Source of the DNA: Candidatus Woesearchaeota archaeon
GTDB lineage: Archaea; Nanobdellota; Nanobdellia; SCGC-AAA011-G17; GW2011-AR20
Assembly: GCA_018302465.1 (NCBI GenBank)
Contig: JAGVZQ010000006.1
Span: forward strand, 1 to 32,312
DNA: 32,312 bases
Direction: 5' to 3'
The notes below the pieces were generated by a model. It was not told the origin of the DNA, made no database searches, and saw only the letters and a program-made list of their open reading frames with translations. How positions within the stretch are numbered: position 1 is the first letter of the stretch; each line of letters starts with the position of its first letter. Below, in pieces: positions 18,233 to 32,310 of this stretch. The position numbers and the translations under genes were made by a program.

Positions 18233-19615
18233 TTATTTACCCATCATCTTTCTCATAGCTGGATGCATATCCATCATATGATCCTGTGCTATTTTTTCAT
18301 ATAAATTATAGATTATCATAACAGCAAGTAATATTCCTGTTCCATTAGATAATGTTCCAGACACATCAGCAAACGCAGCTAAAAATCCTACAGTTAAAGC
18401 TCCCATAATGGTCAAAGGGAAGATATACCTATCTAAAACCCTCTCTAAAACCCTCTCATCTCTCCTAAACCCGGGTATTTGCAGTCCAGAAGCCATTAAT
18501 TGCCTTGCTTGAGACCTTGCATCCATTCCAGCAGATTGTACCCAAAACACTGAGAATAATACTGCTCCAGCCATTAAAAAAAGAGCATAAGAAGCTGCAT
18601 GAGCCAGGTTTATAGGGTCAAAGATACCCCCAACCAAATTACTTATTATATTAGGGGGGAAGATCCATAAAACAAGGCCTGAAGTAGGGGTATTCCCTGC
18701 AAAAGTTCCTAAAAAAGGATGGCCGCTTCTTTGCATTAAACTTGCCCATACTTGAATATTAGCCAAGAAAGCAGCAATTAAGATAACCGGTATATTTGAT
18801 GTATAAAGGAATTTTAAAGGCCACCTTATGCCATATCCTCTAACTCTTCCAAAGGAAAGTGGAATCTCTACTTTCATAGATTGAGCATAAACGGCCAGCA
18901 AGAATACAACAATTGTGGATATAATTGCTGTAGCAGCTAATAAAGCTCCGTTAACATTGCCCCCAGTCAAAGAGGTAAAAAATACCCATAACTGTCCTGT
19001 AGGTGCCTGTCCTGAACCAAATGCAATATCTCCTAATGAGTTTAAAGGAGAAAATGTTCTTATGAATATTTGGGAGGAAACACCTGCAGCAATAAATAAA
19101 GATACACCTGAGCCAAACCCCCATTTATTGGTAACTTCATCCATATATAACACCATTATCCCACCAAGGAATAATTGAAAGACCAATAACCAGGGAGAAA
19201 ATCCAAGGGCAGGAACCAATCCTCCTAAGAATACAAATATTACTGCTTCAAATATAATGAAGAAAATTGACAAAATCTTCTGCAATCCTTGAAAAAATAC
19301 TCTGCCTTCATGAGTAGTAGTATCAATTTTTAATATTCCTGAACCAGATAAAAGTTGAAGCACAATTGATGCAGTTACTATAGGCCCTATTCCCAGCGTT
19401 GTTAAAAATCCAAATGAAGCTCCAAGTATTATAGATAAAAATTCAAAGTTAGCAAGTGCAGACTCCTCTAATCCATATAATGGAACAACACCAAGAACAA
19501 AGAATGCGATTAATATTGCCAAGGTCCATTTAAGCTTTGTATTAAATGGCAGATATTTTTCAGTAGGTCCCTTTACCTCAGGAAGGACAGATATTATTGA
19601 ATTAAAAAATGACAT
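18233..19615 (-). CDS. secY: Preprotein translocase subunit SecY
   Basis: 460 aa with about ten membrane segments. Family landmarks include FNTKLKWTLAILIAFFVLGVVPLYG at the first helix, the plug-proximal region, SFGRVRGYGIRWPLKFLYTSNIPVIL before the cytosolic loop that contacts ribosomes, and the C-terminal FWVQSAGMDARSQARQLMASGLQIPGFR segment. It forms the Sec channel that exports the many signal-peptide proteins of this window. It starts 1 nt after uL15 ends, the classic spc order. Confidence 0.95.
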   Translation of the reverse strand: MSFFNSIISVLPEVKGPTEKYLPFNTKLKWTLAILIAFFVLGVVPLYGLEESALANFEFLSIILGASFGFLTTLGIGPIVTASIVLQLLSGSGILKIDTTTHEGRVFFQGLQKILSIFFIIFEAVIFVFLGGLVPALGFSPWLLVFQLFLGGIMVLYMDEVTNKWGFGSGVSLFIAAGVSSQIFIRTFSPLNSLGDIAFGSGQAPTGQLWVFFTSLTGGNVNGALLAATAIISTIVVFLLAVYAQSMKVEIPLSFGRVRGYGIRWPLKFLYTSNIPVILIAAFLANIQVWASLMQRSGHPFLGTFAGNTPTSGLVLWIFPPNIISNLVGGIFDPINLAHAASYALFLMAGAVLFSVFWVQSAGMDARSQARQLMASGLQIPGFRRDERVLERVLDRYIFPLTIMGALTVGFLAAFADVSGTLSNGTGILLAVMIIYNLYEKIAQDHMMDMHPAMRKMMGK

Positions 19616-32177: not shown

Positions 32178-32184
32178 TATATAA
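32178..32184 (+). promoter_or_regulatory. TATA box for the tRNA-Gln gene
   Basis: TATATAA lies 27-33 nt before the first base of the tRNA, as expected for archaeal tRNA promoters. Confidence 0.6.
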
Positions 32185-32210
32185 GTAGTAATATAAGAGA
32201 AAACTAAGGC

Positions 32211-32310
32211 AGCCCCGTCGTCTAGTGGTCACTTAAAAGCCATAGAAGGATGCGAGACTCTGGAGTACTGGAGAAATCTTGCGACCGAGGTTCAAATCCT
32301 CGCGGGGCTA
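32211..32310 (+). tRNA. tRNA-Gln (anticodon CUG) with a canonical anticodon intron and a D-loop insertion
   Basis: Acceptor AGCCCCG pairs with CGGGGCT, with A73 at 32310 and no encoded CCA. The A1-U72 pair is typical of tRNA-Gln. The T-arm is CGAGG-TTCAAAT-CCTCG and the anticodon stem CGAGA/TCTTG. The loop is CTCTGG + A, anticodon CTG (32260-32262). Bases 32264-32275 are a 12-nt intron at the canonical 37/38 site. CTCT pairs with GGAG to form a 4-bp central helix flanked by 3-nt bulges GG^A and AA^A, a bulge-helix-bulge. The D-stem GTCT/GGAT encloses 24 nt, about 15 too many, so a second intron or unusual D-loop is present. Confidence 0.9.

Follow-up and report, generated by a model that had tools for sequence, protein, structure and literature searches.

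Archaeal tRNA introns range from 11 to 129 nt, with medians mostly between 12 and 25 nt, and non-canonical introns at position 20/21 and at other sites are known from Crenarchaeota/Thermoproteales and Nanoarchaeota (PMC4090602). Relaxed BHBs are thought to need a splicing endonuclease with a beta subunit or a CSL/ASL-like loop, and alpha-type enzymes should prefer strict BHBs (PMC6379350, PMC12397907). BHB introns also occur in protein-coding genes for RNA processing, such as the cbf5 pre-mRNA of Crenarchaeota (PMC2738675). Our search of the open-access literature turned up no paper dealing with woesearchaeal tRNA introns or with introns in the RtcB genes of DPANN archaea.

The stretch of DNA analyzed here (the window, 32,312 nt) is a whole contig of a 749-kb genome that is 97.7% complete, and by ribosomal protein L3 its closest named relatives are Woesearchaeota (identities of 81%, 73%, 70% and 53%). 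Because the contig ends there, the window stops 2 nt past a tRNA-Gln(CUG) gene with two insertions (Table 1). As in the published cases (PMC4090602), we find short putative BHB introns in the D-loop, sometimes alongside a canonical one at 37/38, and the lengths in the window fall within the published range. Unlike those cases, the introns lie in tRNA-Gln of Woesearchaeota, at sites 20a/20b, 20b/21, 21/22 and 15/16, in an order without a detected beta subunit. Comparison with relatives indicates that the gene very probably encodes a functional tRNA-Gln(CUG) with two BHB introns, one of 12 nt at 37/38 and one of 15 nt in the D-loop at 20a/20b, and that its product would be 73 nt long.

Table 1. 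Features of the tRNA-Gln(CUG) gene, in positions of the window.
Feature	Position	Strand	Basis
tRNA-Gln(CUG) gene; 100 nt including the two inserts, 73 nt predicted for the mature tRNA	32211..32310	+	sequence, order model, ortholog L031
TATA-box-like element TATATAAG, 26-33 nt upstream of the gene	32178..32185	+	sequence and alignment
D stem, 5' strand GTCT (partner GGAT, 32248-32251)	32220..32223	+	alignment
D-loop BHB central helix, exon strand GTGG	32225..32228	+	register enumeration
5' bulge TCA, predicted cut TC↓A after 32230	32229..32231	+	register enumeration; cut by analogy with known BHB
Predicted D-loop intron ACTTAAAAGCCATAG, 15 nt, site 20a/20b	32231..32245	+	BHB register enumeration, relatives
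D-loop BHB central helix, intron strand CCAT	32240..32243	+	register enumeration
3' bulge AGA, predicted cut AG↓A after 32245	32244..32246	+	register enumeration
Anticodon stem, 5' strand CGAGA (partner TCTTG, 32277-32281)	32253..32257	+	alignment
Anticodon CTG (CUG)	32260..32262	+	sequence, loop alignment
Anticodon-loop intron AGTACTGGAGAA, 12 nt, site 37/38	32264..32275	+	BHB geometry; mature CTCTGGA loop as in intronless relatives
T arm CGAGG TTCAAAT CCTCG	32286..32302	+	loop alignment

The gene is missed by ARAGORN and, at curated thresholds, by Rfam (15.4 bits for RF00005) because of its inserts, and ARAGORN with intron options still does not call it correctly. Standard finders can miss such genes, and therefore the tRNA sets of DPANN archaea may be under-counted. 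A covariance model of the order's tRNA-Gln finds the gene from end to end (79.6 bits, E 1.5e-19), and the identification as tRNA-Gln(CUG) with two insertions, first made by a sequence-only reading, is borne out. This model was seeded from the order with the present gene among the seeds, which included predicted mature sequences and one artificial UUG variant, keeping the introns as insert columns; the relatives that it matched were judged on their own letters, not on the model. The gene has seven of seven acceptor-stem pairs, the D stem, the T arm, the anticodon and a discriminator A at 32310. An independent MAG of the same genus carries an ortholog (L031), and L047 (isolate RIFCSPLOWO2_02_FULL_34_11) has the identical sequence. 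The D-loop insert of the ortholog is the same as in the window, minus one A in the apical loop and with both arms unchanged, so the insert is not an assembly error. Between the two MAGs the anticodon stem shows a stem-preserving change from G-U to G-C, and the alignment also places TATATAAG in the ortholog, where, as in the window, it may serve as promoter.

The anticodon insert has a 4-bp central helix of CTCT (32258-32261) with GGAG (32270-32273), flanked by the 3-nt bulges GGA and AAA, each cut after its second nucleotide in the layout CGAGA-CTCT-GG↓A-GTACT-GGAG-AA↓A-TCTTG. Its removal leaves a normal CTCTGGA loop. By the strict hBHBh' definition, the 5-bp outer stem is present and a stable inner helix is absent, so the motif is a relaxed one; in the predicted fold, GG pairs with CU across the apex (bulge-helix-loop). 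The initial description of a textbook canonical BHB intron was correct in length, site, helix and bulges, but overstated in the word textbook. Given the known range of 11-129 nt (PMC4090602), a 12-nt anticodon intron is short but ordinary.

The D-loop of the gene has 24 nt, compared with 9 nt (AGTGGCCAA) in the tRNA-Gln(UUG) of the same genome. We searched 103 genomes of the order, retrieved and aligned 60 tRNA stretches, and read their loops. Among the tRNA-Gln D-loops compared, 40 rows have 9 nt (one gene, L049 and L137, being counted twice), 23 have 22-45 nt and none lies between; long D-loops were picked on purpose, so these numbers give no prevalence. In the register GTGG/CCAT, a 4-bp helix with the bulges TC↓A and AG↓A, 15 nt are taken out and the normal loop AGTGGTCAA is left, which is exactly the D-loop of 6 of the 40 insert-free tRNA-Gln. 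Placing the intron at 32232-32246 (20b/21) is equivalent, because the joined product is identical. The motif is relaxed, with an A-A mismatch at the outer helix (the D stem) and an inner helix of 2 bp. On its own it is weak evidence, as a shuffled insert yields a 4-bp helix 11% of the time.

The second intron, the 15-nt excess and the 73-nt product after loss of 12 and 15 nt had all been proposed from the sequence, and these parts stand. The helix drawn for it, TGGT/GCCA, is off by one and takes out 13 nt rather than 15. Taken at face value, that drawing describes the same two introns with the D-loop one cut at CA↓C and TA↓G, so that the D-loop would keep 11 nt, AGTGGTCAGAA. This is improbable. 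Its 4-bp helix and two 3-nt bulges (CAC and TAG) do exist, at an energy similar to that of the 15-nt register, but the outer helix is absent and an 11-nt D-loop occurs in none of the 40 insert-free tRNA-Gln. The gene with the same intron type in another family (L124) would likewise be left with 11 nt.

Of the 23 long D-loops, 20 contain an exact BHB (4-bp helix, 3-nt bulges) placed such that excision would leave a 9-nt loop. Shuffling of the inserts gives an expectation of 1.15 of 23, and the probability of 20 or more would be about 1.6e-24 under independence, an assumption that genomes from a common genus violate; even so, the same pattern appears in many genera and families. Of the 23, L132, L157 and L158 depart from it, with a helix of 3 bp. 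Most introns are at 21/22; others are at 15/16 (L150 and L159), 20b/21 (L139) and 20a/20b (the window, L031 and L124). In L124 the helix is GCGG/CCGT, compared with GTGG/CCAT in the window, with one compensatory change. At the 21/22 introns there is covariation between the intron and nucleotide 20, an A going with U20 and a G with C20: GGUC pairs with GACY in seven cases and GGCC with GGCY in six, with no exception among the 13 (Fisher P 6e-4, ignoring relatedness). This covariation, like the gene and its orthologs, the insert, the relatives' 9-nt loop and the BHB geometry, is read directly from the compared sequences. The tRNA-Gln(CUG) of L049/L137 has no D-loop insert, and instead carries an 11-nt insert at 29/30 (ATGC/GCAT, AA↓T and AA↓G), the smallest known intron size. 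The relatives thus differ in whether the insert is there, and its changes preserve the structure, as expected of a non-canonical intron.

A less likely alternative still is that the mature tRNA retains the insert, folded into an additional hairpin (UCUA/UAGA plus UGGU/GCCA). This hairpin is the lowest-energy fold of the pre-tRNA: the pairing UCUA(G)UGGU/GCCAUAGA is favoured over both 4-bp BHB registers by about 3 kcal/mol, which counts against the intron. We did not rely on these energies, which were calculated without bound protein or tertiary contacts, and we take the result as a caveat on the window's own D-loop motif, not on the comparative argument. The insert sequence is also kept in the same-genus ortholog. 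However, the hairpin replaces the D stem, would block the normal contact between D-loop and T-loop, and is not kept in L124. On retention, related genes had been expected to share the long D-loop in conserved, unspliced form; in relatives we found the insert either absent or different in sequence, length and site, with only the BHB complementarity in common. It is hardly credible that the gene is a degenerate tRNA or pseudogene and that Gln CAG codons are read by tRNA-Gln(UUG). That isoacceptor is present (L014), but all stems of the CUG gene are intact, and two MAGs share it, with the stem-preserving G-U to G-C change between them and with the TATA-like element.

In our preferred reading, in which both introns are spliced, the endonuclease would cut every 3-nt bulge behind its second nucleotide, after which RtcB would join the exons into the 73-nt tRNA with the D-loop AGTGGTCAA. 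Genes for both the endonuclease and RtcB are present in the genome. Removal of the introns in vivo, the precise cut positions and the role of the single alpha-type endonuclease as the cutter are inferred.

Other tRNAs of the same genome also carry inserts. The tRNA-Glu(UUC) gene (L025:1479-1567, contig C2) has a 14-nt D-loop insert at 20b/21 with a perfect BHB (CGGT/ACCG, CA↓A and AG↓A), and without these 14 nt its loop is AGCCCGGTCAA, identical to that of a tRNA-Glu(CUC) in another genome (G001) that itself lacks a D-loop insert. A tRNA with anticodon TGT (L023, G000:C20:37746-37806) has a D-loop insert of about 25 nt in which we found no exact BHB under the assumed mature loop, and it was therefore left out of the support. 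Further tRNAs (L013, L024, L026 and L061) are interrupted in the T arm or T loop, in some cases by more than one insert. Separately, a tRNA-Gly(GCC) (L059, G000:C30, about 19394-19445, minus strand) has a long D-loop insert and a 5' acceptor strand (expected GCGATGG) that matches in its last three nucleotides only; the missing part may be separated by an intron near 4/5 or be encoded elsewhere (a split gene).

D-loop introns are already known elsewhere (20/21), and the more interesting part is the endonuclease setting of the lineage. We found a single endonuclease gene in the genome; its 188-aa product has N and C domains and is roughly as close to M. jannaschii alpha4 as to the N. equitans alpha subunit. 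Across the 103 genomes we found exactly one alpha-type gene in 95, two in one and none in seven. A beta-subunit model gave only weak sub-cut-off matches in the order, nearly all to the same alpha gene, although a very divergent short beta subunit could escape this search; no endonuclease fusion was found in the order. Since no second gene was found, the enzyme would be a homotetramer. Its single gene with both domains and the catalytic residues matches the alpha4 type of Methanocaldococcus jannaschii (1A79), as does its acidic L10-like loop. In 20 aligned endonucleases, the loop that precedes the catalytic His is as long as in M. jannaschii, so there is no CSL/ASL-like insertion. This loop carries an invariant Lys (KPGE/D) in the 20 sequences, which is absent at that place in M. 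jannaschii.

The M. jannaschii enzyme is described as narrow (PMC6379350), whereas the woesearchaeal one would process relaxed BHBs. That the only endonuclease found is of this type counts against the splicing of relaxed BHBs. The hosts of the broad-specificity enzymes epsilon2 (ARMAN-2) and (alpha beta)2 (Nanoarchaeum, Crenarchaeota) also have many non-canonical tRNA introns, but in the present order we detected no beta subunit, fusion or insertion of ASL/CSL length. Either the rule is too strict, or the conserved Lys substitutes for the loop, or there is an unrecognised partner. Splicing as proposed would add a large DPANN lineage to those with non-canonical tRNA splicing, and would challenge the rule that (alpha beta)2 or epsilon2 endonucleases are required for BHBs that are relaxed or displaced.

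The gene for RtcB, the tRNA exon ligase, is itself interrupted. In the present genome (L182, G000:C1:3621-4965, minus strand) a 31-nt interruption, ATGTGATAAAGACATTCTTTTCACAGTGGTA, stands between GGCCATTG and GGGTTACG, and its removal restores PDGHWGYGFPIGG. The insert has a BHB (CCAT/GTGG, bulges TGA and TAG, inner helix TGTGA/TCACA), and the RtcB gene of a same-genus MAG (L230) is uninterrupted at this site. From an order-wide search and 20 fetched stretches, at least 16 genomes, the present one among them, carry inserts of 27-33 nt located at the conserved codons PDGHW/GYG and GFD/INC (L214-L232). Of 14 inserts at the PDGH-WGYG site, 12 fit the 4-bp geometry, as do 10 at the GFD-INC site. 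Nearly all have inner helices of 3-10 bp, with individual shuffle P values of 0.007-0.35. These inserts look like pre-mRNA BHB introns in the ligase itself. They resemble the cbf5 intron (PMC2738675), but would have the ligase splice its own mRNA, at several sites and in DPANN archaea. Whether the stand-alone alpha-type endonuclease both acts on relaxed BHBs at many sites, D-loops among them, and takes part in splicing the RtcB mRNA (with one or two 27-33-nt BHB introns) is to us an even question. If so, RtcB output would depend on RtcB activity, a self-referring control loop in which the splicing ligase has an mRNA that must be spliced. In other genomes the RtcB open frames are about 900-1000 aa long, with the family match split near position 49/50 (for example G058:C88, G072:C1:498996-501707 and G095:C28). 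These long in-frame insertions are probably inteins, close to the site that carries the short BHB inserts in other genomes.
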